A stretch of DNA of 39,736 bases, from IMG/VR virus record IMGVR_UViG_3300032322_000225, positions 1 through 39,736 of that record, one strand, 5' to 3'. The position numbers and the translations under genes are program-made. The notes below the pieces were generated by a model, which was not told the DNA's origin, did no database searches, and saw nothing but the letters and a program-made list of their open reading frames with translations. Shown one piece after another: positions 849 through 39,134 of this stretch. This stretch comes from a virus. Positions within the stretch are counted from its first letter, which is position 1. Every line of letters begins with the position of its first letter.

Positions 849-864
849 GTAGTTTAAACAGATT

Positions 865-895
865 AGCCCCTCGCTTTTTAGCGGGGGGCTTTTTT
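865..895 (+). terminator. Rho-independent terminator ending the late (lysis) transcript
   Basis: A ten-pair stem (865-874 with 881-890, one G-T pair) closes a six-base loop and runs into six T residues at 890-895. It follows the holin-like gene. The stop codon of the opposing HNH gene (878-880) lies in the loop and stem, so the two convergent transcripts meet here. On the minus strand no T-run follows, so it should act mainly on plus-strand transcription. A GTTTAAAC copy (852-859) lies between the holin-like gene and the stem. Confidence 0.9.
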
Positions 896-1243
896 GCTTT
901 CCCAATCTCTATTGTCTTGAGTCTTTAGTCGGTGGCAGTTGGCACATAGTGTCTGTAGATTTGCCATGTCATTGTTCTGATGGTTGCCATCTATGTGGTC
1001 TATATCTAACTGACTACGGTGTATTGCTACAAAACCACAATCCTCACAGTAATCCTTTTTGTATTTAGATAACTTAACACGATTGACATTGGACTTGGTT
1101 CGACAAGACCAGTAGCCTCGTTGCTTTAACTTAAGTCTTGTGGGTCCACACACTGCACAGATACCCCATCGTTTGGCTGGGTTCTTGAGCAGCAGGCGAT
1201 GCTGCTTTGGTTTATCCGCCTGTCGAGTAGAAGCCAGAGGCAT
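878..1243 (-). CDS. HNH endonuclease
   Basis: This 121-residue protein has a classical HNH module. C66 and C69 start the treble clef, D82-H83 lie in LDIDHIDGN, followed by the Asn-rich NHQNNDMANLQTLC segment, then C100, C103 and H104. Extra cysteines C29, C32 and C47 suggest a second zinc knuckle near the N-terminus. Such enzymes nick or cut DNA. In phages they act in packaging or as free-standing homing nucleases. Here it lies at the end of a small minus-strand group, far from terminase, which favours a selfish or accessory role. The first residues overlap the end of the FmdB-like gene by 32 bases in another frame, so a slightly later start is possible. Confidence 0.85.
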   Translation of the reverse strand: MPLASTRQADKPKQHRLLLKNPAKRWGICAVCGPTRLKLKQRGYWSCRTKSNVNRVKLSKYKKDYCEDCGFVAIHRSQLDIDHIDGNHQNNDMANLQTLCANCHRLKTQDNRDWESKKAPR

Positions 1244-1388
1244 TGAACTTCACTGGTGGGCTACTCCAAATGCGAGACATTAGTTGACTGCAGCATGTAC
1301 ATATAGGGGCATCAGCCTCGGCATGCATCGAACGCTCAATCTCCACGACTATCTCACATTGTGGACACTTGTATTCGTACTTACTCAC
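1212..1388 (-). CDS. FmdB-like zinc-ribbon protein
   Basis: This 58-residue ORF starts at GTG. It opens with SKYEYKCPQCE (C8, C11) and has a second cysteine cluster at C30, C32 and C33. It ends RIWSSPPVKFNASGFYSTGG, which I recognise as the tail of FmdB-family zinc ribbons that are common in phages. The role is unknown, perhaps transcription regulation or metal-dependent protein binding. The start overlaps the stop of the preceding 47-residue gene by 8 bases, and the end overlaps the HNH gene. Translational coupling along the whole minus-strand group is likely. Confidence 0.8.
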   Translation of the reverse strand: MSKYEYKCPQCEIVVEIERSMHAEADAPICTCCSQLMSRIWSSPPVKFNASGFYSTGG

Positions 1389-1524
1389 GAGTATTAAGAA
1401 TCCTCTTTAATGCGTTTAAACGGCGTTGTCTGGCTTTTTGTTCACGATTTACTCCACGGCTAAAGCCAAGGCGGTAAAAAAAATATGCTTCAATCAAAGC
1501 AATCAGTATTAGAATTAGTTTCAT
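1381..1524 (-). CDS. 47-residue membrane protein
   Basis: An ORF starting at ATG 1524 encodes one hydrophobic N-terminal helix (KLILILIALIEAYFFY) followed by a strongly basic tail with many Arg and Lys. It starts inside the zinc-ribbon gene (overlap 35 bases) and its stop overlaps the FmdB-like GTG, so it fills an otherwise unexplained 100-base gap. Codons CGT-TTA-AAC in the tail contain a GTTTAAAC copy. The helix-plus-basic-tail layout would place the protein in the host membrane with the tail in the cytoplasm. No family is recognised. Confidence 0.6.
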   Translation of the reverse strand: MKLILILIALIEAYFFYRLGFSRGVNREQKARQRRLNALKRILNTRE

Positions 1525-1744
1525 TGTCATCCACTGGTGTAGGTACGGTAACTAATGCGCCACAGTCAGCACACTTAGCATCAGTAAACCATAGGCTAAT
1601 CTCGTTATCTTCAAACATGCATCCAACTTGGAATACAAGATGCCCACAATTCAGGCAAACACTTGAAGGTATACCACGCAAGTTCACTTGGGCTGGCTTC
1701 GCTCGCCTCTTGACGAGTCTCGCTATTACACCCTTACGCTGCAC
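1490..1744 (-). CDS. Small zinc-ribbon protein
   Basis: The 84-residue reading frame contains two CxxC pairs (C30/C33 in VCLNCGH and C58/C61 in KCADCGA) separated by an aromatic, acidic segment, then an acidic C-terminus. This is the pattern of small phage zinc ribbons of unknown function. The GTG at 1744 lacks a clear ribosome-binding site, and an internal GTG near residue 20 would remove the basic leader, so the start is uncertain. It is the first gene of the minus-strand group that runs to 878 and diverges from the exonuclease operon. Confidence 0.65.
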   Translation of the reverse strand: MQRKGVIARLVKRRAKPAQVNLRGIPSSVCLNCGHLVFQVGCMFEDNEISLWFTDAKCADCGALVTVPTPVDDNETNSNTDCFD

Positions 1745-1853
1745 GAACAGGAGTGTAGTAGTCGTTTAAACTACATGCTTGTAATTAGACTTCGGCGTGT
1801 CGCACAATAGAGCAGACTTTGTGCAGTAATCTCCTCTATTGAAAGGATAAACA
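1745..1853. promoter_or_regulatory. Divergent control region before the replication operon
   Basis: This 109-base gap separates the minus-strand zinc-ribbon group from the plus-strand replication genes. It holds one GTTTAAAC (1764-1771) and a perfect 8-base inverted repeat CAATAGAG / CTCTATTG (1805-1812 and 1834-1841, spacer 21) just before the exonuclease ribosome-binding site. A weak plus-strand promoter candidate is TTGTAA (1779-1784), an 18-base spacer, then CACAAT (1803-1808). That promoter is only a consensus guess. The inverted repeat could be an operator or an RNA hairpin. Confidence 0.45.
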
Positions 1854-3130: not shown

Positions 3131-3928
3131 ATGCGCCTACTCAGCCGTGCTATTAAAACTGCATCACAAGGGGGAGCGACACTACCTGTAGTGTGGCAAT
3201 CACTTGCAGCGCAGCAAATAGCAATCCGTTACGGCGAGGTAAGCATGATTGCTGGACCGCCAGGGGCAGGCAAGTCAACACTTGCTTTGTCCTTGGCAGT
3301 CCGTGCAAAAGTTCCAACCCTTTATATTTCTGCAGACACACACTCACATACGATGAGCCTTCGTCTACTTGCTTTGCTAACTGGCAAGCATCAGTCAGAT
3401 GTTGAACCATTGATGGAACAAGACAGAGACTGGGCAGCACAAATGCTCAAGCCTGCCGACCATATTATGTGGGAGTTTGATTCATCCCCAACGCTTAAAG
3501 ATATTGAAGATGCAGTCCTTGCATCTCGTGAGCGACTGGGCGAAGATGTGCGTTTAATCGTATTAGATAACGCAGTGGATGTAACGATGGACTCACAAGA
3601 TGAGTGGGGTGGACTGCGTACCTTGATGAAGGAATTGAAATGGTGGGCTAGAGAAACTGGAGCAGCCGTTGTTGTGTGTCACCACACGAGCGAAGGCGTA
3701 CCAGGAAATCCTTGCCCACCACAGAAGGCACTGCATGGGAAAGTGGCGCAGACTCCTTCGTTAATTCTTACCGTACATAATCAGATTTCTACAATGGGAG
3801 TCTGTGCAGTTAAGAACCGTTATGGTCCAGCAGATGCAACTGGTGGTACACCAGTGTGGTTGTCGTATGAACCAGCATCAATGCAAATCAACGATGTAAT
3901 TTCATACGAACCAATGCAGTTAATTTAG
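3131..3928 (+). CDS. DnaB/RecA-like replicative helicase ATPase
   Basis: This 265-residue ATPase has a perfect Walker A (AGPPGAGKST, residues 41-50) and a Walker B (RLIVLDN, 141-147). A following VVVCHH segment (180-185) resembles the sensor or motif-3 strand of RecA-fold helicases. It matches the short single-domain RepA / AAA_25 type found in phages that lack a full DnaB with its N-terminal primase-binding domain. It probably unwinds the replication fork with the split primase encoded downstream. It begins 3 bases after the zinc-finger gene, without an obvious strong ribosome-binding site, so coupling is likely. Confidence 0.8.
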   Translation: MRLLSRAIKTASQGGATLPVVWQSLAAQQIAIRYGEVSMIAGPPGAGKSTLALSLAVRAKVPTLYISADTHSHTMSLRLLALLTGKHQSDVEPLMEQDRDWAAQMLKPADHIMWEFDSSPTLKDIEDAVLASRERLGEDVRLIVLDNAVDVTMDSQDEWGGLRTLMKELKWWARETGAAVVVCHHTSEGVPGNPCPPQKALHGKVAQTPSLILTVHNQISTMGVCAVKNRYGPADATGGTPVWLSYEPASMQINDVISYEPMQLI

Positions 3929-3936
3929 GAGAACAC

Positions 3937-4254
3937 ATGTGGGAACTTACAGTAGTTGAAAATGCAGGAGAAATCCCAGCATCAAAAGTCAAAGATGAGA
4001 TTTCAGTTGAAACAAAACCTCTCCTCATAGACATCAAGGCACAGTTAATGATTGCTATGCCTAAGACACTTACATACACCGTTGGTTGGAGGGCAGTTGT
4101 TTGGCAAAATAAAGAGACTGGTCAGTTCAAAGACCTATCCGAAGCAGAGTACAATCAATATATTACAAGCGGGTCTGTCAATCCCACAGGGGGAGATGGA
4201 AAAGATGGTAAACAAGATGAAGTTACCAGCGGAGATGAAGGAAGCACTGCTTGA
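3937..4254 (+). CDS. Unknown protein in the replication operon
   Basis: This 105-residue protein opens with a short conserved-looking segment and has a middle region with Tyr-Thr and Trp strands (LTYTVGWRAVVW). It ends in a Gly/Asp/Glu-rich disordered tail. No family is recognised. A good ribosome-binding site (TTAGGAGAACAC) precedes ATG 3937. The acidic tail is encoded in a stretch that overlaps the first 50 bases of the next gene in another frame, so the tail composition may be constrained by that overlap. Confidence 0.65.
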   Translation: MWELTVVENAGEIPASKVKDEISVETKPLLIDIKAQLMIAMPKTLTYTVGWRAVVWQNKETGQFKDLSEAEYNQYITSGSVNPTGGDGKDGKQDEVTSGDEGSTA

Positions 4255-4507
4255 AGAACTGCCTCAAGTAATTGAGCAGATGGAGGAAGTAGCCAAGAAG
4301 GTTTACGACCCCCATCAGATATGGCTAGAAGCCATGCAGTTTGCAGATTATGTAACGCAACTATCCAACCATCTTAAGGATGACCACGGTAGAGATTGCA
4401 TACTAGACATAGCAGAGCAGTTAACTAATATGTCCAACTCGTTTAAACAAATGGGAGAGAACGCACTACGGGTTCTTGATGAAGCAGAAGGGGAACACAA
4501 TGGCTAA
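4205..4507 (+). CDS. Unknown helical protein
   Basis: This 100-residue protein is mostly alpha-helical and charged, with an acidic helix at residues 10-30 and a Met/Leu-rich second half. No family is recognised. The longer reading frame begins at 4052, but ATG 4205 has a GGGGGAG Shine-Dalgarno 9 bases upstream and matches the operon's habit of small overlaps (50 bases with the previous gene, 8 with the next). A GTTTAAAC at 4441-4448 encodes Phe-Lys. ATG 4217 is an alternative start. Confidence 0.65.
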   Translation: MVNKMKLPAEMKEALLEELPQVIEQMEEVAKKVYDPHQIWLEAMQFADYVTQLSNHLKDDHGRDCILDIAEQLTNMSNSFKQMGENALRVLDEAEGEHNG

Positions 4508-5231
4508 CAGTAATCAGGAAACATTATCTCTTGGTTGGTGCGACAACGGTATGGTAGATGGCAAGTTTGCCGAAGGCATTATGTACACCACCGTGACTGC
4601 ACCATCACACAAGATGGCGATTAACAACGCTATCCGTGTGCAAGGTAATCAGATTGGCAGACAACGCCAAGCCCTGCTTGATATGTGGTATGACAAAGTA
4701 AAGACAGACTGGTTATTATGGGTTGACTCTGACATTGTGTTAACCACTGATGTGCTTGCGATGTTATGGAAGATTGCTGATAAGAACACCAAGCCAGTTG
4801 TATGTGGCACTTACTTTATCTCCAAGCAAATGGAGTCATCGTTGATGCAACCTATGCCTGCTTTATTTCACGAGGTCAGTGAGTATGAGATTAAGTATCT
4901 CCACCCACTACCCAAGGATGAAGTGGTAAAGGTTGACTGTGCTGGTTTGGGTCTTACCCTGATGCATCGCAGTGTTGTTCCTAAGTTGCGTGCCATCTCA
5001 CCTGACTACTCAGTGTTTGCTGAGAAGGAAGGGCTAGGAGATAAGTATGTTGGCGAGGACATTGTGTTCTTCCGTAATTTAAAGAAGGCTGGCGTTGATG
5101 TCTATGCACACACTGGTGCAGTTGTTAAGCACATGAAGCGGTTTGCCTATGACGAGAACTACTATGCGTTGTATTGGCAGGCTGCTGCTGCAGCAGAGAG
5201 GCAGACAAATGGCGAGCCAGCAGCAGAGTAA
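4500..5231 (+). CDS. Glycosyltransferase, GT-A fold family 2-like
   Basis: The 243-residue protein has the layout of phage-type family 2 glycosyltransferases. An N-terminal nucleotide-binding region is followed by DWLLWVDSDIVL with a DxD-like metal site, a VVCGTYF strand, a CAGLGLTLMHRSV segment, and GEDIVFFRNLKKAG near the C-terminus, where the ED pair suits the catalytic base. It would transfer a sugar from a nucleotide-sugar to an unknown acceptor, perhaps phage DNA, a virion protein or a host wall polymer. The start at ATG 4500 follows AGAAGGGGA and overlaps the previous gene by 8 bases. Its place inside the replication operon rather than among tail genes mildly favours DNA or an early host target. 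Confidence 0.75.
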   Translation: MANSNQETLSLGWCDNGMVDGKFAEGIMYTTVTAPSHKMAINNAIRVQGNQIGRQRQALLDMWYDKVKTDWLLWVDSDIVLTTDVLAMLWKIADKNTKPVVCGTYFISKQMESSLMQPMPALFHEVSEYEIKYLHPLPKDEVVKVDCAGLGLTLMHRSVVPKLRAISPDYSVFAEKEGLGDKYVGEDIVFFRNLKKAGVDVYAHTGAVVKHMKRFAYDENYYALYWQAAAAAERQTNGEPAAE

Positions 5232-5574
5232 TAAGCGTAGAGGTGCAGCCTTTGAGATTGACCTTGCTGATTGGTTAATGCAACAGGGTTTAAACGCACA
5301 ACGCCTGCCTCGTGCAGGGCGTAACGACATTGGTGATGTATTTTTACCAGCAACCAATGACATTTATGTTATCGAAGCCAAGGCACCACGGCGTGACGGC
5401 AAGGTAGACCTATCGGGTTGGTTGCGTGAGGCGTATGTAGAAGCAGAGAACTACCGTAAGTCTAAGAAACTTGCGAGTGCACCTACACCATTGGTAATTA
5501 TCAAGGCATCTAACAAAGGAATTGAGGATGCCTATGTTGTGCAAAGGCTAGGTGACATCCTTGCAAAACTCTAA
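5209..5574 (+). CDS. Holliday-junction-resolvase-like PD-(D/E)XK nuclease
   Basis: This 121-residue protein looks like archaeal-type Hjc/VRR resolvases. It has an N-terminal RRGAAFE (E16), then an RAGRNDIGDVF segment with D40 and D43, then VIEAKA with E56 and K58, which together form the PD-(D/E)XK active site. It probably resolves branched DNA before packaging. ATG 5209 lies within the end of the glycosyltransferase gene (23-base overlap), behind GCAGAGAGGC. A GTTTAAAC encodes Leu-Asn at residues 28-29. The nuclease fold is well supported, but junction specificity is inferred. Confidence 0.75.
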   Translation: MASQQQSNKRRGAAFEIDLADWLMQQGLNAQRLPRAGRNDIGDVFLPATNDIYVIEAKAPRRDGKVDLSGWLREAYVEAENYRKSKKLASAPTPLVIIKASNKGIEDAYVVQRLGDILAKL

Positions 5575-5932
5575 GCACGACATAGTTAAAGTCCTTGAGC
5601 ATTACGGTTTTGATATACCGCACGGAAGGCGTGGCTGGTTCACACTGCGCTGCGCTTTCCACGGTGATAGAGTTAAGTCTGCCCGTTTAAACATAGACAA
5701 CGGTGGGTTTCGTTGCTTCGGATGTGAGATGGCTGGAGATGTGTATTCACTGATAATGAAGAAAGAAGGAGTGGGATTCAATGAGGCTAAGCAAATCGCA
5801 GAAGGAATTACTGGAGAAAGCAACGGAGAGTTACGCTCAAAACCTACAGGAAATAGTGCCGTACCTACAGAGCAGAGGTATCACAGAACAGACAGCGACT
5901 ATGTTTCGCCTCGGTTTCGTAAGAGAGCCTGA
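5552..5932 (+). CDS. DnaG-type primase zinc-binding domain (separate protein)
   Basis: The 126-residue protein carries the CHC2-like zinc finger of DnaG primases: C34 and H37 in LRCAFHGD, C55 and C58 in GFRCFGCEMAGD, and the usual SARLNID strand between. This finger recognises single-stranded template. After about residue 88 the sequence becomes low in structure and overlaps the first 152 bases of the TOPRIM gene in another frame. A zinc domain and a TOPRIM domain on separate reading frames suggest a split primase, or one joined by frameshifting. It starts at GTG 5552, overlapping the resolvase gene. Confidence 0.75.
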   Translation: MTSLQNSKHDIVKVLEHYGFDIPHGRRGWFTLRCAFHGDRVKSARLNIDNGGFRCFGCEMAGDVYSLIMKKEGVGFNEAKQIAEGITGESNGELRSKPTGNSAVPTEQRYHRTDSDYVSPRFRKRA

Positions 5933-6398
5933 GATGGGGCATGAACCTTATGTTGGTAAGTTAGCAATCCCTTACCTCACACCCACAGGAGTGATTGACA
6001 TACGGTTCCGCAGTTTAAACAGTGATGGCGGTCCGAAATACATGAGCAGACCAGGGGCTACGACTCACATCTATAACATCAGTGCGCTTGGTAATGATTC
6101 AGATGTACTTGCTATCTGTGAAGGTGAACTCGATACAGTTGTAGCCACACAAGCAGGGTTTAGTGCAGTTGGTTTGCCTGGGGCTAACAACTGGAAGTCC
6201 TTTTACAATCGTGTACTTGCTGACTGGTCAAAAGTTATCTTGTTGTGCGATGGTGACAACGCAGGGCGTGAGATGGCTAAACATTTAAGCAGAGAATTAG
6301 ACAATGTGTTTCCTGTATTCATGCCTGAGGGTCAAGATGTTAATGATGTTTACTTAGCCGAAGGCGCTGACGGTTTACGAAAGCGAGCGGGTGTTTAA
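5781..6398 (+). CDS. DnaG-type primase TOPRIM catalytic protein
   Basis: The 205-residue protein has the primase catalytic core. An N-terminal helical part (ESYAQNLQEIVPYLQSRGIT) is followed by a basic IDIRFRSLN strand and the TOPRIM motifs ICEGELD (E114, E116) and LLCDGDNAG (D157, D159), then VNDVY. It would make RNA primers. It has its own start at ATG 5781 with AAGGAG 9 bases upstream, inside the zinc-domain gene, so both proteins can be made from one message. The stop codon TAA is embedded in a GTTTAAAC that sits just before the next start. Confidence 0.8.
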   Translation: MRLSKSQKELLEKATESYAQNLQEIVPYLQSRGITEQTATMFRLGFVREPEMGHEPYVGKLAIPYLTPTGVIDIRFRSLNSDGGPKYMSRPGATTHIYNISALGNDSDVLAICEGELDTVVATQAGFSAVGLPGANNWKSFYNRVLADWSKVILLCDGDNAGREMAKHLSRELDNVFPVFMPEGQDVNDVYLAEGADGLRKRAGV

Positions 6399-6400
6399 AC

Positions 6401-6796
6401 ATGATGGTAAAGAACTCATCATTTGATTTGGACTTTGGCTACGGTCGTAAGGGCGAACAATTAGTTGAGGCTTTACTAACAGAAGGTAAGACAGTAGAAG
6501 TTAAGCGTGACCGTAAGTGGTGGGCAACTAACAACATTTATGTAGAGGTTGAGTGTTGGTTCAACAAGACTAAATCTTGGGAACCATCAGGTTTGATGGT
6601 TACTACCGCTGAGTATTGGGCGTTTGTTCTTGAGCGTGGTGTTGTCATGGTACCAACAGACCATGTGCACTACGCAATCAGGGAGTTTGGTAAGGAAATT
6701 ACTTGCGAGATACCACCGAACTGGAGTAAAGGCTTCCTAATTACTATCGAGGATTTACTAACAACAATGAAGGAACTTAAACATGGAGAACAATAA
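6401..6796 (+). CDS. Probable nuclease-like protein
   Basis: This 131-residue protein has an N-terminal FGYGRKGEQLVEALL helix with E19/E23, then KTVEVKRDRKWW, which gives an E-x-K motif followed by aromatic strands (IYVEVECWF). The order resembles small phage PD-(D/E)XK-type nucleases, but I cannot assign the full active site, so the function is tentative. It begins directly after a GTTTAAAC whose TAA ends the primase gene. No strong Shine-Dalgarno is seen, so coupling to the primase stop is likely. ATG 6401 and ATG 6404 are both possible starts. Confidence 0.6.
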   Translation: MMVKNSSFDLDFGYGRKGEQLVEALLTEGKTVEVKRDRKWWATNNIYVEVECWFNKTKSWEPSGLMVTTAEYWAFVLERGVVMVPTDHVHYAIREFGKEITCEIPPNWSKGFLITIEDLLTTMKELKHGEQ

Positions 6797-7433
6797 CGAA
6801 TTGTTATGGGAAAGCGTATACAAAGTGGCACGCTACAGTGCAACACGATGTGTGCGTATCCATCGCAACCTCGTATCTGTTGATGATGTATTCCAGCACC
6901 TAAACTTATGGGCAGTAGAGCACTGGCATAAGATTGAGGAGTGGGAAGGGCAGGATTCTTTAGTGTTTAAACTGCGCCGTACATTTAACAACGAGAGTCA
7001 GAAGTTTGCAGCCAAAGAGCGTGCGTATAAAACAAAGTCCATACCAAGCGATGCGTTTTACTATACTCACGAGATACTTCAAGAGTTACTGCGTGATGTA
7101 TGGAACTATGAGCAGTGGGTATCATCAGGTTCGCCAGCAGATGCAGAGTTTATTAGCAAGACAAGTAAACCTAATGAAGGCATGAACAGAGAAACAATGT
7201 TGTCAGATGTAAGCGGCTCACTTGCCCGTTTAAACGAGCAAGACAGGGACTTGTTGCGGCGTAGGTTTGACGGTGGCGGTACTGACTTCGATGTGCTTGC
7301 CGTTGAGTACAGTGCCAGCGAGGAAGCACTGCGTAAGCGTGTCTCTCGTGCACTTACTAAGTTACAAGACAGACTAGGTGGGGAACAACCTCAATGGAAC
7401 AATCGTAGATACAGGAAACCCGATAATGATTAG
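6783..7433 (+). CDS. Sigma-factor-like transcription regulator
   Basis: The 216-residue protein ends with a region-4-like helix-turn-helix (about 149-195): LARLNEQDRDLLRRRF, then a Gly-rich turn, then VLAVEYSASEEALRKRVSRALTKLQ. Before it lies a helical N-terminal half with aromatic residues that may be a diverged region 2. Such proteins redirect host RNA polymerase or act as late activators. The position at the end of the replication operon suits control of late genes. A GTTTAAAC encodes Leu-Asn inside the HTH, and another encodes Phe-Lys. No characterised relative is identified. Confidence 0.7.
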   Translation: MENNNELLWESVYKVARYSATRCVRIHRNLVSVDDVFQHLNLWAVEHWHKIEEWEGQDSLVFKLRRTFNNESQKFAAKERAYKTKSIPSDAFYYTHEILQELLRDVWNYEQWVSSGSPADAEFISKTSKPNEGMNRETMLSDVSGSLARLNEQDRDLLRRRFDGGGTDFDVLAVEYSASEEALRKRVSRALTKLQDRLGGEQPQWNNRRYRKPDND

Positions 7434-7587
7434 ACCTAAATACCAACGCATGAAACCATGGAACTGGATAGGACTGCCGTTGTACTACATCGGTATCTGT
7501 TTAAACGACATAGGGTATTATACTTACCTGGCTGGAAATAAAATAATTTGGTTTAAACGCAAACAGATTGGATACATAGATAAATGA
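7426..7587 (+). CDS. Small protein, possibly membrane-associated
   Basis: The 53-residue ORF starts at ATG 7426 (GGAAA upstream, 8-base overlap with the sigma-like gene). A moderately hydrophobic aromatic middle (WIGLPLYYIGICLNDIGYYT) is followed by a basic end. It could sit on the membrane surface. It contains two GTTTAAAC copies within 60 bases, encoding Leu-Asn and Phe-Lys. The stop overlaps the kinase start by 4 bases. No family is recognised. Confidence 0.6.
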   Translation: MIRPKYQRMKPWNWIGLPLYYIGICLNDIGYYTYLAGNKIIWFKRKQIGYIDK

Positions 7588-8117
7588 TTATTGGATTAAG
7601 TGGATACGCACAATCAGGTAAGGATACTGTTGCTGAACTGTTGTGTTTAAACTATGGGTTCAAGCGTATATCTTTTGCATTACCTATGCGTGATGCAATC
7701 TATACACTCAACCCTTATGTTGAAGGTGGCAATCGAGTTGTTGATTTAGTAGATGAGTATGGTTGGGATGTAGCCAAGGCTAACCCTGAGGTGCGCCGTT
7801 TACTTCAAGTGTTTGGTACTGAGGTAGGTCGCAATCTTTTTGGTGAAACCTTTTGGATTGACCAAGCGTTTAAACGAGCAGAAGAATACGAACGAGTAGT
7901 CTTTTCTGATGTGCGTTTTCCTAATGAAGCACATGCTATTCAAGCCAAAGGTGGTGATGTATGGCGTATCAATAGACACAATCACGCACCAGTTAACGCA
8001 CACAAGAGCGAGCATGCAATGGATATGTTCATGTTTAAACATGTGTTGTACAACGATGGAACGCTTAATGATTTATCTGATGAAGTGTTCATGCTTGCTA
8101 AACAATTAGGTTTGTAA
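7584..8117 (+). CDS. Deoxynucleoside monophosphate kinase
   Basis: The 177-residue P-loop kinase begins with IIGLSGYAQSGKDTVAELL (Walker A at residues 7-15), the hallmark of phage dNMP kinases similar to T4 gene 1. FSDVRFPNEA lies in the middle, and a helical C-terminus follows. It phosphorylates dNMPs to dNDPs so that host DNA breakdown products can feed phage replication. It is the last gene of the plus-strand early operon and overlaps the preceding gene by 4 bases. It contains three GTTTAAAC copies. A terminator follows 8 bases after the stop. Confidence 0.85.
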   Translation: MIIGLSGYAQSGKDTVAELLCLNYGFKRISFALPMRDAIYTLNPYVEGGNRVVDLVDEYGWDVAKANPEVRRLLQVFGTEVGRNLFGETFWIDQAFKRAEEYERVVFSDVRFPNEAHAIQAKGGDVWRINRHNHAPVNAHKSEHAMDMFMFKHVLYNDGTLNDLSDEVFMLAKQLGL

Positions 8118-8124
8118 AATGCAG

Positions 8125-8160: not shown

Positions 8161-8164
8161 GTAT

Positions 8165-8205: not shown

Positions 8206-8220
8206 AATAACTTTACTGTA

Positions 8221-31136: not shown

Positions 31137-31138
31137 TT

Positions 31139-31841: not shown

Positions 31842-31843
31842 TT

Positions 31844-32119
31844 ATGGCTACAGGTTATGACGGTTCAACACTCGTTGCTGAGTTAAATAGACTTGCCAAT
31901 GAAGGCACTTATCCAAACCGAACTGTTTTCTTAGATGCACCAGGTGCTGCCAATAAATGGGCTGGAACTACTGGTAAAGATTTATTAGGAGCGCTGAACT
32001 ACAAGGCTAGTTCATCTCGCCAACCAGATAACTTTAAAGGTTTAAACGCAGTATGCAATGAACTTGCTGGCACAACAAACAAGTCGGCAGTATCAGCATT
32101 GAGGAGCATTGACCTGTGA
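31844..32119 (+). CDS. Small head-tail region protein
   Basis: The 91-residue protein contains NYKASSSRQPDNFKGLNAVCNELAGTTNKSAVSALRSI (start of this stretch near residue 52), with AVCNELAGTTNKSA as the clearest block. Similar short repeats of NELAGT type occur in phage structural proteins. It directly precedes the adaptor gene and overlaps its start by 4 bases. The position suits a connector or tail-completion protein. A GTTTAAAC encodes Leu-Asn. Confidence 0.6.
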   Translation: MATGYDGSTLVAELNRLANEGTYPNRTVFLDAPGAANKWAGTTGKDLLGALNYKASSSRQPDNFKGLNAVCNELAGTTNKSAVSALRSIDL

Positions 32120-33039
32120 GCACACTTGAACAACTTACTGACCGTGTAGATACACTTCTTCACGGCTACAGTTTAAACATGGAATCAACCACATGGTTGA
32201 CTGGTGCTATAACAACTACCACTCAGACTACTATTTCTGTTTATGATTCTAATGTTGTAAGCCGTGGCTTCATCCAAATTGGCGATGAGATTATGTATGT
32301 TAATACTACAAATAACATTGACAATACCCTTACCCTTGCACCATGGGGTCGTGGGCAGCGTGGCACAATAGCAACAACGCATGACAACTCATCTAAGGTA
32401 ATGGTATCCCCACTGTTTCCTCGTTTTGAAATCAAGCGTGCTATTAACGACACACTCAATGCAATGTATCCAGATATATTTGCCATTGGTCAATACCAGT
32501 TCCCGTTTATTGCTGCTCGTACAACTTACGATGTTCCAGATGTAATTCAAAACATCTTGTCCGTAACTCACCATGTCATTGGTCCATCTCAAGAGTGGCT
32601 ACCAGTGCGTGCATGGCAATTAGATAGAACAGCAAACCCAGCACAGTATGGCACTAACGGTGCCTTTGGACATACCCTTGGTATTTACTCATCAGTAGTT
32701 CCAGGGCGTATTGTCAATGTGGCTTACTCAAAGCGCCCAACACTTTTTGACATCACACAATTACCATCAGTTACACAAGAATACTCAACGGTAACTGGCA
32801 TGCCTGACTACTCAGAAGATGTAGTTATCTATGGCGCAGCCTTCCGTATGATTTCTTTCCTAGACCCTTCACGCCTTGGTGCGCTATCTGCAGAAGCAGA
32901 TGTGCTTGATAACCAGCGTGGAGCACGAAGTGGTGAGAACGCAGCACGCTTCTTGTTCAATGTTTACAACACTCGTCTTAAGGAAGTGGCGGAGAACCAA
33001 CGCCGTCAGTTCCCTATTCGTTCACACTATCAGAGATAA
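32116..33039 (+). CDS. Head-tail adaptor / tail tubular protein-like
   Basis: The 307-residue protein starts at GTG, with a strand-rich domain (about 25-105, including GFIQIGDEIMYV and PWGRGQRGTIATTH) and a mainly helical part with RFEIKRAINDTLNAMYP and VVIYGAAFRMISFLDPSR. This mix resembles gp11/gatekeeper-type adaptors of short-tailed phages. It would close the portal and dock the tail. The evidence is layout and position. No close relative is identified from sequence alone. Confidence 0.6.
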   Translation: MSTLEQLTDRVDTLLHGYSLNMESTTWLTGAITTTTQTTISVYDSNVVSRGFIQIGDEIMYVNTTNNIDNTLTLAPWGRGQRGTIATTHDNSSKVMVSPLFPRFEIKRAINDTLNAMYPDIFAIGQYQFPFIAARTTYDVPDVIQNILSVTHHVIGPSQEWLPVRAWQLDRTANPAQYGTNGAFGHTLGIYSSVVPGRIVNVAYSKRPTLFDITQLPSVTQEYSTVTGMPDYSEDVVIYGAAFRMISFLDPSRLGALSAEADVLDNQRGARSGENAARFLFNVYNTRLKEVAENQRRQFPIRSHYQR

Positions 33040-33051
33040 GGTAACCCCACC

Positions 33052-34650
33052 ATGGCAGCAGGCGACCCAGGCGCACTCAAGCGGAACTTTTCCGCCACAG
33101 CGATTGAAACAACACTCGTTAACTCTATTTCATCAGCAGCAACTGGCGACACAACTACAAGCGTTTCTGTTGTATCTGTTAGCGGTTACCCTGCTGTTCC
33201 ATTTACGCTCATCCTTGCACCAGATACAAACAAAGAAGAAGTTGTTACCTGTATATCTGTAGTTGGAACAACGCTTCAAATTGTCCGAGGTCAAGACCAA
33301 ACTCTTGCGGTTTCTCACACCGCTGGTACATCTGTACGCCATGGCGTATCTGGTCGTGACTTTAAAGAAGAACAGACTCACATTGCAGCCCGTGGCTATG
33401 ACATTGATTCAGGTATTCTTTCTAACGCTTCACAAACACATGTTCACGGACTTGTAGCAGGCGATGGTTCAGTAGTTGGTGCAGACCAATTAGTAACTCT
33501 TACTCGCAAAACTCTTACAACGCCTACAATCAATGGCGCTACTCTTACTGGAACAGTAACTGCATCTGCAGCCACTATTGCCAGCCCTACAATTACTAGC
33601 CCTACCATTTCAGGCAGCCCAGTTATTACTGGTCTTTCATCTGCTGGTATGTCATCATCATCGGCTGCGCCTAAGTCTTATGTAGATGCACTGATTACTA
33701 CCAACCAAGCCTCTGCTACCGCAGCAGCAACAAGCGCAGCAAGTGCTGCGACTAGCGCTACTGCAGCAGCCACAAGTGCAACATCGGCTGCTACAAGTGC
33801 AACTGCTGCTGCTACCTCGGCAACCAGCGCTGCAGCAAGTGCAACAGCAGCAGCAACTTCTGCTGCTAGTGCTGCTGCATCTACTTCTGCTGCTGCTGCA
33901 AGCGCATCCGCTGCAGCAACATCAGCCACAAGTGCTGCTGCATCGGCTACCGCTGCTGCTACTAGCGCTACAAGCGCATCTGCTTCTGCATCAACTGCAG
34001 CCTCATCTGCAGCCACTGGTGTAACCGCTGCTACTAACGCAGCAACCTCTGCAACTTCTGCTGCAGCCAGTGCAACGGCTGCTGCTACAAGCGCCACAAG
34101 CGCTGCTGCTAGTGCATCTGCTGCTTCTGGAAGTGCTACAAGTGCAGCAACTTCTGCATCTAATGCTTCTGCTTCATCTGCTCAGGCTGCTATCTCTGCT
34201 TCAAGTTCTGCTACATCTGCTACCTCTGCAGCAACTAGCGCATCAAGTGCTGCTGCTTCTCTTGTATCAATTACTGGACAAACAGGTTCTGGTCTTGTCC
34301 GTGACATGGGTGAAATTACAAGCGCAGATACAACATCAACAACATATATCAACATTGCAACCGTTACCGCTGAGGCGCAGGCTGCTGCTACCTCTGCCAC
34401 AACAAGTGCAACCAGCGCTGCTACTAGCGCTACTTCTGCTGCAGCAAGTCAAACTGCTGCTGCAACATCTGCAACATCAGCAGCAGCATCTGCTACTGCT
34501 GCTGCTACATCCGCTGCATCTGCTGCTGCAAGTGCAACCGCTGCAGCAAGTGCTGTTCCCGCCGTCACCGCAGGTGTCAGTGGGTATTTCTTATCAAACA
34601 ATGGAACAACCGCTTCATGGACTAACCTCTCAGATTGGGGAACCGTATAA
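33052..34650 (+). CDS. Tail fibre with Ala/Ser/Thr repeat shaft
   Basis: The 532-residue protein has a globular N-terminal domain (about 1-215) that would attach to the tail, with FKEEQTHIAARGYDIDSG and HVHGLVAGDGS. A long shaft of ATSA/ASAA-type repeats follows (about 225-405 and again 440-505), broken by one ordered segment (VRDMGEITSADTTSTTYINI). It ends with a short YFLSNNGTTASWTNL cap. Such shafts form coiled coils or beta helices in phage fibres. The DNA of the shaft is a degenerate repeat that gives long artificial reading frames on both strands. Confidence 0.8.
   Translation: MAAGDPGALKRNFSATAIETTLVNSISSAATGDTTTSVSVVSVSGYPAVPFTLILAPDTNKEEVVTCISVVGTTLQIVRGQDQTLAVSHTAGTSVRHGVSGRDFKEEQTHIAARGYDIDSGILSNASQTHVHGLVAGDGSVVGADQLVTLTRKTLTTPTINGATLTGTVTASAATIASPTITSPTISGSPVITGLSSAGMSSSSAAPKSYVDALITTNQASATAAATSAASAATSATAAATSATSAATSATAAATSATSAAASATAAATSAASAAASTSAAAASASAAATSATSAAASATAAATSATSASASASTAASSAATGVTAATNAATSATSAAASATAAATSATSAAASASAASGSATSAATSASNASASSAQAAISASSSATSATSAATSASSAAASLVSITGQTGSGLVRDMGEITSADTTSTTYINIATVTAEAQAAATSATTSATSAATSATSAAASQTAAATSATSAAASATAAATSAASAAASATAAASAVPAVTAGVSGYFLSNNGTTASWTNLSDWGTV
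33721..34260 (+). repeat. Degenerate coding repeat of the fibre shaft
   Basis: Short units encoding ATSA, ASAA and TAAA motifs are repeated dozens of times with varied codons. A smaller second block lies at 34378-34555. Codon variety reduces recombination, yet the region remains a likely hot spot for length change. Confidence 0.8.
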
Positions 34651-35216
34651 TGTCATTTGCATTTCAACGCCGTAGAGGAACAACCGCTGCACACGCATCC
34701 TTTACAGGTCTACTAGGAGAACTTACAGTAGACACAGATAAGGACACAGTAGTAGTCCACGATGGTGCAACTGCAGGTGGTTTCCCACTTGCTAGAGCAC
34801 AGGGTGGAAGCCTTGCTGATGCAACCACAAGAGGACTAGAAGAAGATATAAATGTTGTGGCTTCTGCTGCAACTGGAACTATTAACTTTGAAGTTGCTAC
34901 AGCATCTATCTGGTATTACACAACTAACGCATCAGCCAACCACACTCTTAACTTTAGATACAGCAGTAGCGTGGCTCTTAACACATCACTGCCAGTAGGT
35001 GACACGATTACCTTGGTATGGCTAAACACCAATGGGGCAACTGCTTACTATCCAAACACTATTCAGATTGACGGAACAACCGTTACACCAAAGTGGCAGG
35101 GTGGAACTGCGCCTACTACTGGTAATGCATCATCTATTGATGCCTATGTGTTTACAATTATTAAGACAGCATCTGCTACTTATACAGTCCTTGCATCACA
35201 AACAAGATTCGCTTAA
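34650..35216 (+). CDS. Tail fibre / receptor-binding protein with Mtd-N-like start
   Basis: The 188-residue protein begins with RRGTTAAHASFTG, then LLGELTVDTDKDTVVVHDGA and TAGGFPLAR. This matches the N-terminal module seen in many phage fibre and tropism proteins (major tropism determinant N-terminal type). A beta-rich remainder with many Thr and Asn follows. ATG 34650 overlaps the preceding stop (TAATG). It probably sits at the fibre tip with the preceding shaft protein. Confidence 0.75.
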   Translation: MSFAFQRRRGTTAAHASFTGLLGELTVDTDKDTVVVHDGATAGGFPLARAQGGSLADATTRGLEEDINVVASAATGTINFEVATASIWYYTTNASANHTLNFRYSSSVALNTSLPVGDTITLVWLNTNGATAYYPNTIQIDGTTVTPKWQGGTAPTTGNASSIDAYVFTIIKTASATYTVLASQTRFA

Positions 35217-35228
35217 TAGGGGGTAGTC

Positions 35229-35783
35229 ATGCCGTTGCTTACAACGCAATCTGCTAAAGGTTATGGGTTTGGTTCATTAGTTGCACCGAGCATCTCAACA
35301 TCCTATGTATCTTTAGGTTCTGTAAAACTTGCATCAAATCAAACATCAGTAACATTTTCAAGCATACCTGCAACCTATAAACATTTAGAGATTCGACTCT
35401 TTCAAAGAAAATCTGCAGGCGGAAATGATGCTTTGCTTATGCATTTGAACGGAGATTTTACAAATGGAAACTACGCATACTATTCTTTTGGTGGAGATGG
35501 AACGGCGTTTGTTCAATCTATTGTAGATAATGCAGGCATTGGTTCTACTAGAAGTAATGGCTGGAACACAACAGTAATAACAATTCCAGATTATGCATCT
35601 ACCGCTAAAGTTAAGTCTTATCAATCTTTAAGCGGAAGTTCTAGCCAGACCGAGAGTTGTATTTTTTATGTTGGAACTGCGTGGGATAACACATCTGCTG
35701 TCAACACAATTAGATTAACGGTAAGTGACGGAAATCCTTTCATAACTGGCTCTGTCTTTGCACTATATGGAATTAAGGGGTAA
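35229..35783 (+). CDS. Tail-tip beta protein, YGIK paralogue 1
   Basis: The 184-residue protein is made of Ser/Thr/Asn-rich beta strands. It has SVKLASNQTSVTFSSIPATYKHLE and ends FALYGIKG. Two neighbouring genes encode proteins with the same plan: an N-terminal strand, a TFxSIPxTYxxL block and a terminal F-x-LYGIK. They are diverged paralogues, probably receptor-binding or fibre-tip subunits. It starts 12 bases after the previous gene behind AGGGGGTAG. Confidence 0.7.
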   Translation: MPLLTTQSAKGYGFGSLVAPSISTSYVSLGSVKLASNQTSVTFSSIPATYKHLEIRLFQRKSAGGNDALLMHLNGDFTNGNYAYYSFGGDGTAFVQSIVDNAGIGSTRSNGWNTTVITIPDYASTAKVKSYQSLSGSSSQTESCIFYVGTAWDNTSAVNTIRLTVSDGNPFITGSVFALYGIKG

Positions 35784-35785
35784 TA

Positions 35786-36328
35786 ATGCCAATAACAATT
35801 TCGCCAACAGGCACAACAACCGAAGCAGATGCTTACTTTCCTATTGCAACTTACATATTTCCAAGTGCTGCTAACTCTTATACCTTTACAAGTATTCCTG
35901 GAACTTATGATGATTTAGTTCTTATTGTTGCAAATAGCACTTGTAGTTCTGGTCAGACCATTGAAATGCAATTTAATGGCGATACTGCAAACAACTATGC
36001 TTACGCTAACATAACAGCACCAAATGGTTATGGTATTCCTACAGTAAGTGGGGTTAGCACCAGCCGAGACAAAATACCAGTAGGCTCGACATATTCTGGT
36101 GAAAGTTCCACAAAGGCTGCTATTTTAGTATTGCATATAAACCAATACTCTCAATCATCTTATCCAAAAACATGTGCTTCAACTTATGGACAAGCAGATA
36201 TTGAAGCAAATGCATGCACTGGTTCTTGGACAGGAACTGCGCCTATAACTTCTATAAAACTTGGTCTTTTTTCTGCTAACTTTCAAACTGGAACACAATT
36301 TACTTTATACGGAATTAAGAGAGGTTAA
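35786..36328 (+). CDS. Tail-tip beta protein, YGIK paralogue 2
   Basis: The 180-residue protein shares the family plan: IFPSAANSYTFTSIPGTYDD near the start, a middle domain with few residues in common with its neighbours, and FTLYGIKRG at the end. It starts 2 bases after the previous stop. The middle domains of the three paralogues differ far more than their ends, as expected for host-contacting surfaces. Confidence 0.7.
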   Translation: MPITISPTGTTTEADAYFPIATYIFPSAANSYTFTSIPGTYDDLVLIVANSTCSSGQTIEMQFNGDTANNYAYANITAPNGYGIPTVSGVSTSRDKIPVGSTYSGESSTKAAILVLHINQYSQSSYPKTCASTYGQADIEANACTGSWTGTAPITSIKLGLFSANFQTGTQFTLYGIKRG

Positions 36329-36330
36329 TT

Positions 36331-36834
36331 ATGCCAGCAACTTATACACTTATTGCCAGCACAACCATACCAAGTGCTACTGCTGCATATACATTTAACA
36401 CTATACCTGGAACATATACAGACTTGAAACTTATATGGTCAGTAAAGGCTTCAAATGGTTGTGATGGTAGTATCACTTTTAACAGTGTTACATCTGGCTA
36501 TAACTATCGTTCTATTTTTGATGTTAATCGAACAACTGGTTCTCCAGAAACCTATGGTGGAAATGTTACTAATAGTTGCGTAGTGCAGTATTTTCAAAGC
36601 AATCTTTTTAATGCTGGTGCTATGTATGTCACTAACTATGCTACTGCAACCCAAAAATCAATATGGACAGATAGCACTCGCCCTAACTTAACATCTACCA
36701 GCGACTTCTCTCTTGTTCCAATGTCACATAACTGGAATAACACAGCAACTATTACTAGTTTAACATTTACATTAAACTCAGCAAATATAGAACCAAACTC
36801 ACAATTTTCATTATACGGAATCAAAAACTCATAA
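36331..36834 (+). CDS. Tail-tip beta protein, YGIK paralogue 3
   Basis: The 167-residue protein has TIPSATAAYTFNTIPGTYTD near the start and FSLYGIKNS at the end, which places it with the two upstream paralogues. It is closest to paralogue 2 in the N-terminal block. It is the last of the tandem set. A receptor-binding role is inferred from position, composition and divergence. Confidence 0.7.
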   Translation: MPATYTLIASTTIPSATAAYTFNTIPGTYTDLKLIWSVKASNGCDGSITFNSVTSGYNYRSIFDVNRTTGSPETYGGNVTNSCVVQYFQSNLFNAGAMYVTNYATATQKSIWTDSTRPNLTSTSDFSLVPMSHNWNNTATITSLTFTLNSANIEPNSQFSLYGIKNS

Positions 36835-36843
36835 GGAGAAATA

Positions 36844-37077
36844 ATGACACAACTAAAAGAAATAATCCACAACTGTGAAACTGGCGAGATTACAGAAAGA
36901 TTTTTAACAGCAGAAGAAGTTGCTGTAAGAGAAGAAATGGCTGCTCAAGCAGCAGCAGAAAAGCAAGCCAGAGAAGATGCAGCAGCAGCATTTGCTGTTC
37001 TCAAAGAATCTGCTAAGGCTAAGTTGGTAGCAGGCACACCGCTTACAGAAGAAGAAGCAGCAACAATCGTTTTTTAA
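36844..37077 (+). CDS. Small coiled-coil protein in the tail module
   Basis: The 77-residue protein has a short N-terminal part (KEIIHNCETGEITERF), then a long Glu/Ala/Lys-rich helix (about 22-58) and a short end. It lies between the fibre genes and the large tail protein and may act as a fibre-assembly factor or small tail component. GGAGAAATA precedes ATG 36844. A GTTTAAAC lies in the gap after it. Confidence 0.6.
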   Translation: MTQLKEIIHNCETGEITERFLTAEEVAVREEMAAQAAAEKQAREDAAAAFAVLKESAKAKLVAGTPLTEEEAATIVF

Positions 37078-37103
37078 TTCCGTTTAAACAATAAGGAGAA
37101 ACA

Positions 37104-39134
37104 GTGGCTAGTCGTTCCCCCGATATTTCCGAGCGCACGATAATTGATTTATCTGGTCGCCTTTCTACATACTATGATTTAAACGGTAACGCTTTTGACA
37201 TGGCTATTGGTGGCTTGCCATTTATTATGGCAGTAACAGACAGTACCCCTTACCGCCGACAGACTGCAGAGTTTCGTGTTCAGCGTGTAGACCAGATGCG
37301 TGACCCAGGCGAGCATACCCTTGGTGGCTCAGGCTACTGGACTCGTGCACAATCATCATGGCACTATGGTGAGGGTGTTCTATTTGCTGAGCCAATGGAA
37401 GGTAATGAGAACGAAGTTCGCTTCCGCTTCCGTGATTCCTATGGCATAGATGTATGGACTCCAGGTGAGATAAGCCTAATTAAAAGAAGTAGCCTTGTTC
37501 AGGCTTTTACTGGCAAGTGCAAGATAGATACGGGTGCCAGCAGTGCAGGCGTTGCCTTCCTTGTAGCAACCGATATGGCACCACGCACCTCACAAACTAC
37601 AGCAATGTATAAGATTACAAGTTCTGGCTCATCTACACCTTTGGTTAACTTCTCATCATTTACTAATGAAACTATCCTTGCTACCACATCTGATGGCACA
37701 TACATGTATGTTGCTACAACTGCTGGCATTTACGATGTTCAACTATCTGATGGAACCACCCATAAACATTATGGTTATGATGGTTTAACGGCATCAAATG
37801 TAGTTCTTAAGTATGCCAAGAATCGTGTTATTGCTGCGTTTGGATTTACTGATGGAACTTTCTCAGCCTATGAACTTACATTTGCATCCCATGGTGGTGC
37901 GCCTGTTGTTCAAATTAAACCAGGGATGAGCGCTTCCCAAGGCGACCTTATTAACGGGTCAACTTTAATGCCTGCATTGTGGCAATGGGCAGGCATTACC
38001 GAAGGAACTAACGCTATCTATTTTGGTGGCTACGCTGGCGACCACTCTGTTATCTTTAAATTACAAGTAGATAATACTGCCAACCTAGGCACTCTTATTA
38101 CTGCTGCCACCATGCCACGAGGCGAAACTGTTTTATCTTTGTATACATACCTTGGCACCTTTCTTATGCTTGGCACAAACAAGGGCGCTCGCATTGCAAC
38201 CTTAGACCAAAACGGTGACCTGACATACGGACCATTGGTATTTCACAATGAGAACGGTGTCTATGACTTTGAAGGGCGTGACTCTTATATCTGGGCTGGC
38301 AATACTAACCAAGTAAATACTAACTCAGGTACTACACGCATTAACCTTGGTCAGCCATTGACCCTTATTGGCTATGCTCAACCTATTTCTAGTGGTGTGT
38401 ATGCTCGTGCAACGGATGCCTATGCAGACGGTATCTTCGGTACAGTAAATGCCGTTCGTATTTTAGGTGCTGATAACCAAGTTGCTTTTGCAATCAATGG
38501 TTCAGGTGTCTGGCTACAACATCCAACCGAGTTGGTTGAATCTGGACAAATCCGCACTGCCCGTATTCGTTATGACACCATGGAAAACAAAGCATGGAAG
38601 CGTATTCGTGTTCGTACCACCAATGACATAGCAGGTGGTGATATTGAAATCTTTAAGATTGGTCCAACAACAGACACTGTTATCACTACTCTTTATGAAG
38701 GCAATACCACTACTGCTGATATTGATTTAGGTGATGCTTACCAAGCAGCAGGACCAGATGCATCGTTTAAACTTACTCTTACTCGTAACTCTACTAGCGC
38801 AACCACTGGTCCAGTAGTGGTAGGTATTGCTGTTAAGGCTTTGCCAACACCCACTCGTGCTCGTGTGTTACAGATTCCTTTGTTCTGTTATGACAAAGAA
38901 ACAGACAAGACAGGCAACATCATTGGCTACGAAGGCTACTCAAGAGAGCGTTTAAACGCACTAGAAACTATTGAAGCCAACGGGCAAACAGTTATTCTTC
39001 AAGACTTTAATCAAGGTGGAGAGCCAACCGAAGTCATCATTGACCAAGTTACCTTTACTCGCTCTACCCCTGCTAACCGTAACTACACAGGCTTTGGTGG
39101 AATCATCACACTCATTGCCCGTACTGTCGTATAA
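37104..39134 (+). CDS. Large tail protein, probable tail hub / tubular protein B-like
   Basis: The 676-residue protein starts at GTG 37104 behind TAAGGAGAAACA. Residues about 165-420 hold repeated four-strand patterns (ATTSDGTYMYVATTAGIYDV, TEGTNAIYFGGYAGDHSVIF, LSLYTYLGTFLMLGTNKG), suggesting a beta-propeller. The C-terminal 200 residues form another beta domain. In short-tailed phages such a protein forms the tail nozzle or hub next to the adaptor. The assignment is by size, strand pattern and position between the fibres and lysis genes. Confidence 0.65.
   Translation: MASRSPDISERTIIDLSGRLSTYYDLNGNAFDMAIGGLPFIMAVTDSTPYRRQTAEFRVQRVDQMRDPGEHTLGGSGYWTRAQSSWHYGEGVLFAEPMEGNENEVRFRFRDSYGIDVWTPGEISLIKRSSLVQAFTGKCKIDTGASSAGVAFLVATDMAPRTSQTTAMYKITSSGSSTPLVNFSSFTNETILATTSDGTYMYVATTAGIYDVQLSDGTTHKHYGYDGLTASNVVLKYAKNRVIAAFGFTDGTFSAYELTFASHGGAPVVQIKPGMSASQGDLINGSTLMPALWQWAGITEGTNAIYFGGYAGDHSVIFKLQVDNTANLGTLITAATMPRGETVLSLYTYLGTFLMLGTNKGARIATLDQNGDLTYGPLVFHNENGVYDFEGRDSYIWAGNTNQVNTNSGTTRINLGQPLTLIGYAQPISSGVYARATDAYADGIFGTVNAVRILGADNQVAFAINGSGVWLQHPTELVESGQIRTARIRYDTMENKAWKRIRVRTTNDIAGGDIEIFKIGPTTDTVITTLYEGNTTTADIDLGDAYQAAGPDASFKLTLTRNSTSATTGPVVVGIAVKALPTPTRARVLQIPLFCYDKETDKTGNIIGYEGYSRERLNALETIEANGQTVILQDFNQGGEPTEVIIDQVTFTRSTPANRNYTGFGGIITLIARTVV

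Follow-up and report, generated by a model that had tools for sequence, protein, structure and literature searches.

A SprT-like zinc-ribbon protein as candidate reader of an iterated palindromic word in phages and plasmids

Introduction

Why would a phage genome carry one eight-base palindrome dozens of times, and what reads it? The question is raised by a stretch of 39,736 nt from an IMG/VR virus record (IMGVR_UViG_3300032322_000225; the whole stretch is called the window below), in which the word GTTTAAAC occurs in 49 exact copies, with starts from 852 to 38950. An earlier note on this DNA, made from its letters, had pointed out the word and found no reader protein evident. We find that a gene for a SprT-like zinc-ribbon protein (12313–12867, minus strand) goes with the word, both inside phage families and between them, and on a plasmid too. 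Our reading, to which we give a probability of about 0.72, is that GTTTAAAC is the recognition word of this phage-encoded protein, which would most likely act as a many-site, stoperator-like silencer. Correlation gives strong support to the protein as the reader. The comparisons establish the word, its conservation, its switching and its association with this gene, whereas direct binding, silencing and a part played by the protease domain are inferred.

The word in the window

Our recount gave the same 49 copies as the earlier note, and the expectation of about one was reproduced as well, being 0.86 under a Markov model of order 0 and 1.15 under order 2 (2.1 and 4.8 at orders 3 and 4). Orders 5 and 6 predict 22 and 41 copies, a test that is uninformative because these models are fitted largely to the word itself: 49 of the 66 TTTAAA and 49 of the 53 GTTTAAA of the window lie inside GTTTAAAC. 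The word is the top 8-mer of the window, the second palindrome having 8 copies. Each of its one-base variants is found in 0–3 copies per strand, a background level that agrees with the claim that the full 8-mer is what is kept. The claimed early-region bias of 33 copies also holds, as 33 of the 49 lie between the helicase and terminase genes, at 3.35 per kb compared with 0.54 per kb outside. Copies outside genes or on a stop codon, formerly put at 12, do exist, and by our gene list the number not wholly within a gene is 11 of 49. The sites do not cluster at gene ends: 8 of 49 fall within 25 bp of one, where random placement would give 5.0.

Switching of the word between close relatives

A scan of viral sequences for three GTTTAAAC within about 180 bp returned at least 119 stretches, and in 117 of them GTTTAAAC is the commonest 8-base palindrome. 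Relatives of the window with an 85–100% identical helicase mostly have either 20–42 copies per stretch or almost none, with some intermediate and often shorter stretches. Most examined relatives without GTTTAAAC have another iterated word, TGTCTTAA, which when extended is the palindrome-like tGTCTTAAGACa, and one has GTCTAAAC; the three words define types A, B and C of the window family, C being a single genome. The locus sets for helicase, SprT-like protein and DNA polymerase I used in this work are the best 80 matches each. The window and its 80 helicase loci (n = 81) comprise 42 A, 34 B and 5 low-count loci, and in none are GTTTAAAC and TGTCTTAA both abundant. Helicase relatedness is not a simple guide to the switch: B relatives with 91–95% helicase identity are nearer to the window than are A relatives with 85%, and the word switches between phages whose helicase proteins are ~93% identical.

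The sites themselves were followed in alignments. Twelve A relatives, with 72–87% nucleotide identity to the window and 28–58 copies of the word per genome, all keep the sites at 5288, 5685, 6393 and 6965 unchanged, while only 10–44% of the aligned 8-mers are unchanged in the same alignments. Per A genome, 8–38 aligned GTTTAAAC are kept against 1.9–18.6 expected. Eleven of the twelve B relatives keep just 0–2 of 14–22 aligned window sites. Copies are thus largely gone from these near relatives, and the loss without replacement that the earlier note had contemplated is not what is seen, as another word stands there: the B word GTCTTAAT occupies the equivalent of 5685 in 8 of 12 B genomes and that of 7645 in all 11 that align. 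Similarly, across the 11 other B genomes the B sites of one genome (G016) are retained at 1.4 to 3.2 times the rate of aligned 8-mers generally. The early region is enriched in 21 of 21 measurable genomes, whether the word is A, B or C (2.0–3.7 per kb vs 0.2–0.6 per kb elsewhere; five genomes whose early region is split by contig ends were left out). The comparison indicates that the word sites are under selection and that their places are conserved. Coding constraint, which had earlier been judged no explanation, is ruled out as the cause by the sites outside genes and by the swap of the word at the same place.

The twelfth B relative (G020; loci L421 and L422) keeps 8 of 22 aligned GTTTAAAC, mostly outside the early region, and carries 10 leftover GTTTAAAC despite its B type. 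It looks like a recent mosaic with an A-type phage.

These observations bear on the option, raised in the earlier note, that a host factor or methyltransferase reads the word in the manner of HIP1. A fully symmetric 8-mer with few tolerated variants would suit a methylase or a nucleoid protein. The option is disfavoured because the word switches between phages with such similar helicases, along with their own reader gene (see below), and because the same word is present in elements with recorded hosts among the Actinomycetota and Pseudomonadota. Word-bearing phages are recorded from five genera, Arthrobacter, Microbacterium, Streptomyces, Dinoroseobacter and Achromobacter, and the word is also on a Magnetospira plasmid. 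Furthermore, none of 396 Actinomycetota genomes matches the reader profile at 1e-12 (positive control 5/6, the miss being a B type). A host reader is therefore, in our estimate, very improbable.

A triple-site GTTTAAAC scan of genome contigs returned 100 stretches, many of them regular repeat arrays. Many of the clusters in bacterial genomes (L120–L199) are regularly spaced, a good number of these being in cyanobacteria, and look like repeat arrays of the CRISPR (clustered regularly interspaced short palindromic repeats) type and not like phage words.

A candidate reader gene within the window family

Gene content was compared over 26 near-complete contigs. Genes for an amidotransferase, an amidoligase and a protein of 184 amino acids, all within the leftward early operon, are present in 13 of 13 A genomes and in the C genome, and in none of 12 B genomes. 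In 11 of the 12 B phages a SprT-like protein of 213 amino acids stands in place of the 184-residue one, and a B protein of 58 amino acids is likewise found in 11 of 12. The A-type and B-type proteins are distant relatives that both match phrog_6361 and have a common C-terminal ribbon, with the motif KQ[ST]TRLxK, apart from rare variants, in type A and [GS]RNTNL[IL]K in type B. The B-type protein matches PF10263 at the cut-off (25.6 bits), and a Pfam search with the window protein gave no match at an expect value (E) of 1. Among 159 family loci, some of which share a contig, reader type equals word type in 88 of 88 callable cases (50 A with A, one A-type reader with GTCTAAAC, 37 B with B); loci without reader in the stretch (65) or with the protein and too few words (6) were not scored.

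Other early proteins were considered and rejected as readers. WhiB and the sigma-like protein are both present in A and B phages, and their versions in near A and near B phages are more alike than those in near A and far A phages (gene clusters in fewer than 14 genomes were dropped from this comparison). Amidotransferase, amidoligase and DUF3846 were not found spanning other word-bearing groups. The genes of the last three, located at 8995–12442 on the minus strand, accompany the A/C word, are lacking in B relatives and could encode a peptide-modifying pathway.

Association of protein and word across families

Overall, 177 phage records and 70 plasmids were matched, and 20 named phages and seven plasmids with the protein were examined. 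In an all-against-all phmmer comparison of 35 records in 16 groups, in which families present in at least four groups were reported, the SprT-like family alone spans nine groups, among them temperate phages of Arthrobacter and Microbacterium for which no repressor is known; the next-widest family spans five of 16, word-less phages among them. A profile search finds the SprT-like protein in 33 of 45 records, and the 12 in which the profile did not find it are ten word-bearing fragments of 4.5–15 kb and two Streptomyces phages. These two belong to the Beephvirinae, whose terminase, at 50% identity, is nearest to that of the window among the matches listed; they have no enriched word (one stray copy of GTTTACAC, an asymmetric variant of the word) and no reader by profile.

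In the reverse test, the best 80 IMG/VR loci were found by the protein alone. Enrichment in GTTTAAAC plus GTTTACAC was observed in 74 of the 80, and for each of five control word pairs in 0 of 80, which together with the window counts rules out chance or composition as the cause of the excess. One of the six non-enriched loci (L524) uses ATTTAAAC. Grouping the proteins at 70% identity yields 30 clusters, of which 26 have an enriched member.

The ribbon and the choice of word

Among the 20 named phages, which were chosen for the protein, QxTR is found in the ribbon of 16, and all 16 have the word, the leading word reaching 13–40 copies in 15 of them and 4 in Mano. GTTTACAC occurs 14–33 times in Arthrobacter and Microbacterium phages (Azeevirinae, Zetavirus and three unplaced records), and Pan1 and R5C have 16 and 17 copies of GTTTAAAC vs 0.02 and 0.04 expected. 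Three more distant members were fetched without prior knowledge of their words. LazerLemon, with an intact ribbon, has 40 GTTTACAC and one GTTTAAAC; Mano, also intact, has four GTTTAAAC, one of them 17 bp upstream of the reader gene; Epa5, in which the ribbon is lost, has no copies.

Over the 78 loci with QxTR, the residue at X and the first base of the word vary together. The share of ATTTAAAC is 0.77 for P (4 loci), 0.44 for A (5), 0.17 for G (21), 0.16 for T (19) and 0.05 for S (29), and for the 68 loci with at least four copies none of 20,000 shuffles reached the observed difference, kinship being ignored and the P loci being two near-identical pairs. Loci L523–L526 and L508, in which the leading word is ATTTAAAC or a mix, have readers with P or A in QxTR. 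As for the B type, Pas43 of the Actinoplanes phage phiAsp2 (L660) resembles its reader (33%), and this phage has a longer iterated word of its own, with TGAAGTGTCA, TGACTGTGAA and similar 10-mers in 10–14 copies.

Fold of the protein

The predicted models (predicted local distance difference test, pLDDT, 95 and 91) consist of a SprT-like domain followed by a small C-terminal ribbon. For the 184-residue window protein AlphaFold2 gave a pLDDT of 90.8; it has no HExxH and retains KQTTR and the C-terminal Cys residues. HExxH is present in 28 of the 33 profile-found records, the window member and three A/C relatives being among those without it, and it is absent in 77 of 195 family members, of which the 60 listed are mostly window-family loci. 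Foldseek gave no match in the PDB at E ≤ 1e-3 for either model. The weak best neighbours of the pLDDT-95 model are a metallopeptidase zymogen (E 0.006) and, second, CapP (E 0.096), and nothing below E 1 was found for the window model. PDB sequences searched with a profile likewise gave no match at E 1.

Sites at the reader's own gene, strand bias and plasmids

In 19 of 30 word-bearing records the word lies within −150 to +35 of the reader start, an uncontrolled count in which starts were guessed by a script where annotation was absent. Seven Arthrobacter/Microbacterium phages have it at −26 to −45. In 11 related phages of these hosts GTTTACAC is on the plus strand at 170 of 245 sites (p 6e-10, overstated because the phages are related), and the plus strand holds nearly all annotated genes in the five of the 11 whose gene tables were examined; GardenState, Honk and Percival show little of this bias or the opposite one. 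In DrManhattan, 8 of 26 sites are outside genes vs 2.2 expected, which is an enrichment and not a majority.

A tblastn search with the DrManhattan protein led to the 70 plasmid records, mainly of sphingomonads. A Magnetospira plasmid carries the protein and 18 GTTTAAAC (0.4 expected), one of them 69 bp upstream of the reader gene, and 12 of its 19 sites are outside listed genes vs 4.4 expected under an incomplete gene table. A Sphingobium yanoikuyae plasmid has 8 copies of the word vs 0.04 expected. On four sphingomonad plasmids the reader gene adjoins parA. When three plasmids were compared with the phage set, the reader matched eight groups, and a frame of the recombinase region and one unannotated frame matched clusters AZ and EH only.

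The protein might read the word for a purpose other than silencing, for instance to direct a protease to proteins that are stuck on DNA, to compact or partition the genome, or to turn transcription on. The frequent retention of HExxH (28/33), the neighbouring parA and the mostly intragenic window sites would suit such a role. It is harder to reconcile with the 77 of 195 members that have no HExxH while their words persist, with the sites near the reader's own start, with the strand bias of GTTTACAC, and with the homoimmunity of Powerpuff lysogens, for which no known repressor is reported (PMC8758107). We consider a non-silencing purpose unlikely.

A proposed model of many-site silencing

Recognition of the word most likely falls to the C-terminal ribbon (KxQxTRxxK..C...C), and each variant word would have its own variant ribbon. 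The reader would bind many sites over the genome, most densely in the early region, and further sites just upstream of its own gene, and once bound it would most likely silence transcription at many points, like the repressors of cluster A mycobacteriophages at stoperators. A many-site silencer is proposed because of that precedent and because Powerpuff lysogens are immune without a recognised repressor. The cluster A repressors are reported to silence transcription at many stoperators, with words that differ between relatives (PMC6550527, PMC9283540); lysogens of Powerpuff (cluster AZ) are reported to be immune to relatives, with no identifiable repressor (PMC8758107). The Powerpuff genome has 27 copies of the word. 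The immunity repressor that temperate relatives (clusters AZ and EH) are missing would then have a good candidate in this protein. The window phage, in whose searched proteins no integrase was seen, would use it rather to shut down early genes.

Several points weigh against this model. Most window sites are intragenic, unlike classical stoperators, and the own-start site of the window family, lying in a dense early region, is likely expected from density alone; moreover, 11 of 30 word-bearing records have no site near the reader start. Four phages, Katzastrophic, Brahms, Celaena and Epa5, encode the protein without the word, all four without QxTR, and contig G037 has no QxTR yet holds 16 GTTTAAAC. 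The protein of the Magnetospira plasmid has QSIR. Copies are few on six sphingomonad plasmids that encode the protein: one has 8 and five have 3–4 (the reversed word, as a control, gives 0–2 in four of these). Reader genes were found in 54 of the 119 word-cluster loci counted as a minimum, of which 43 are under 6 kb, and in 26 of the 42 loci of at least 10 kb. Clustering of the reverse-test proteins at 60% identity gives 15 clusters, of which 12 include an enriched member and 10 consist of enriched members throughout.

The Microbacterium phages Katzastrophic, Brahms and Celaena (L433, L434, L458) keep HExxH while the QxTR ribbon is gone. A search of the three for an iterated word found none convincing, and their reader has possibly been retired or re-aimed.

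Two further points concern the choice of gene. Within the family, amidotransferase and amidoligase segregate with the word equally well, and DUF3846 nearly so, so that only the cross-family tests single out the SprT-like gene. One of these tests, with the best 80 DNA polymerase I loci, found the word in 6 of 6 with the protein and 2 of 74 without (Fisher 9e-8, kinship ignored), but it is confounded by relatedness because all six positives are among the ten nearest loci (59–86% polymerase identity), and it mainly shows that distant polymerase-bearing phages have neither protein nor word. Of the other four loci in this range, two have the word and no detected reader: L580, which is a fragment of 5.8 kb, and L584, which comes from a contig of 35 kb. 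A small, highly divergent repressor could be imagined as the reader, the SprT-like gene merely travelling along: all-against-all phmmer would miss short divergent proteins, other early genes segregate with the word in the family, and L584 is a case of the word without a detected SprT-like gene. The link, however, extends to phages and plasmids for which no other family in common with most groups was detected, and the word changes in step with ribbon residues, which makes a hidden repressor quite improbable and leaves the SprT-like protein as the preferred reader.

Somewhat short of even odds, and hence tentatively, we suggest a wider reading: the SprT-like zinc-ribbon proteins would form a class of sequence-specific global regulators in mobile elements that has gone unrecognised. 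Each element would be stamped with the word of its own reader, the ribbon would set the word, the protein would be the immunity repressor of the temperate phages, and the protease domain might be a built-in off-switch that some lineages have lost. In the open-licence PubMed Central (PMC) literature we found no paper on the word, nor on the SprT-like family as repressor or DNA-word reader. A protein annotated as a protease becomes a candidate reader of a DNA word. It is also a candidate, open to testing, for the repressor reported to be missing from phages of clusters AZ and EH (PMC8758107). The word offers a simple means to find such phages and plasmids in metagenomes, and the natural specificity variants (A, B, C and ATTTAAAC) could teach how the ribbon reads DNA.

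Features of the window

Besides the candidate reader, genes of the window include those for a WhiB protein, a sigma-like factor, a split primase, a DnaB-like helicase and a Holliday junction resolvase. The primase (5552–6398) is split into overlapping zinc-finger and Toprim genes, and the annotation of Streptomyces phage Immanuel3 likewise has two overlapping primase genes. The positions are collected in Table 1.

Table 1. Word sites and candidate reader gene in the window (dNMP, deoxynucleoside monophosphate).
Feature	Positions	Strand	Basis
Early region, helicase to terminase, 33/49 sites	3926..13764		site density
Candidate reader, SprT-like zinc-ribbon protein, 184 amino acids, first gene of leftward early operon	12313..12867	-	phrog_6361 E 2.8e-8
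GTTTAAAC sites at 852, 1414, 1764	852..1771		exact count
GTTTAAAC site	4441..4448		exact count
GTTTAAAC in Holliday resolvase gene; kept in 12/12 A relatives	5288..5295		alignment
GTTTAAAC in primase zinc-finger gene; kept in 12/12 A relatives; GTCTTAAT there in 8/12 B	5685..5692		alignment
GTTTAAAC in Toprim gene; kept in 11/12 A relatives	6013..6020		alignment
GTTTAAAC at Toprim gene end; kept in 12/12 A relatives	6393..6400		alignment
GTTTAAAC in sigma-like gene; kept in 12/12 A relatives	6965..6972		alignment
GTTTAAAC sites at 7228, 7499, 7551	7228..7558		exact count
GTTTAAAC in dNMP kinase gene; GTCTTAAT there in 11/11 aligned B relatives	7645..7652		alignment
GTTTAAAC sites at 7868, 8033	7868..8040		exact count
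GTTTAAAC sites at 8490, 8663, 8993, 9300, 9568	8490..9575		exact count
GTTTAAAC sites at 10138, 10221, 10266, 10315, 10883, 11022	10138..11029		exact count
GTTTAAAC sites at 11309, 11527, 11708, 11969, 12149, 12227, 12451	11309..12458		exact count
GTTTAAAC, 58 bp upstream of candidate reader's start codon	12926..12933		exact count
GTTTAAAC, 115 bp upstream of candidate reader's start codon	12983..12990		exact count
GTTTAAAC site between reader gene and terminase	13258..13265		exact count
Sparser sites outside early region: 15359, 17202, 20322, 20879, 21827, 24846, 25766, 30760, 32040, 32171, 37082, 38765, 38950	15359..38957		exact count

Comparison with known systems

The HIP1 word is cyanobacterial and chromosomal and is linked to a methyltransferase. 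GTTTAAAC is, like HIP1, a highly iterated palindromic 8-mer; unlike HIP1 it is found on phages and plasmids and follows a gene encoded by the element.

With respect to SprT-like proteases (PF10263, phrog_6361), an annotation given in Arthrobacter and Microbacterium phages, the window protein belongs to the family by its phrog_6361 match (E 2.8e-8) and differs from the metalloproteases in having no HExxH zinc site. CapP/CapH is a metalloprotease-controlled repressor system, and in such systems the protease cleaves a separate repressor. ImmA/ImmR is likewise described as a metalloprotease-controlled repressor (PMC9030533). What is common to these and to the present protein is a metalloprotease fold tied to the control of a mobile or defence element, CapP being the second Foldseek match; the difference is that here the protease-like fold and the presumed DNA reader are in one protein.

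Stoperators, named as a parallel in the earlier note, are a useful one. Cluster A mycobacteriophages (L5, Bxb1) and Rhodococcus phages of cluster CA have 20–30 copies of a short word per genome; these words differ between related phages along with the reader and are mostly in one orientation to transcription (PMC6550527, PMC13313380). The cluster A reader is a monomeric repressor with a helix-turn-helix and a Stoperator domain and a 13-bp asymmetric site (PMC9283540). The present system is alike in its tens of copies (49 in the window) and in a word that changes between relatives together with the reader (88 of 88 callable loci). Orientation cannot be defined for the palindrome GTTTAAAC, and for GTTTACAC it leans to the plus strand. 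Unlike in cluster A, the sites are not mostly in small intergenic gaps (11 of 49 in the window, 8 of 26 in DrManhattan), and the word is of 8 bp, symmetric in the window group. Its putative reader would combine a SprT-like domain with a ribbon according to the models, and candidate reader and word are found together on a plasmid as well.

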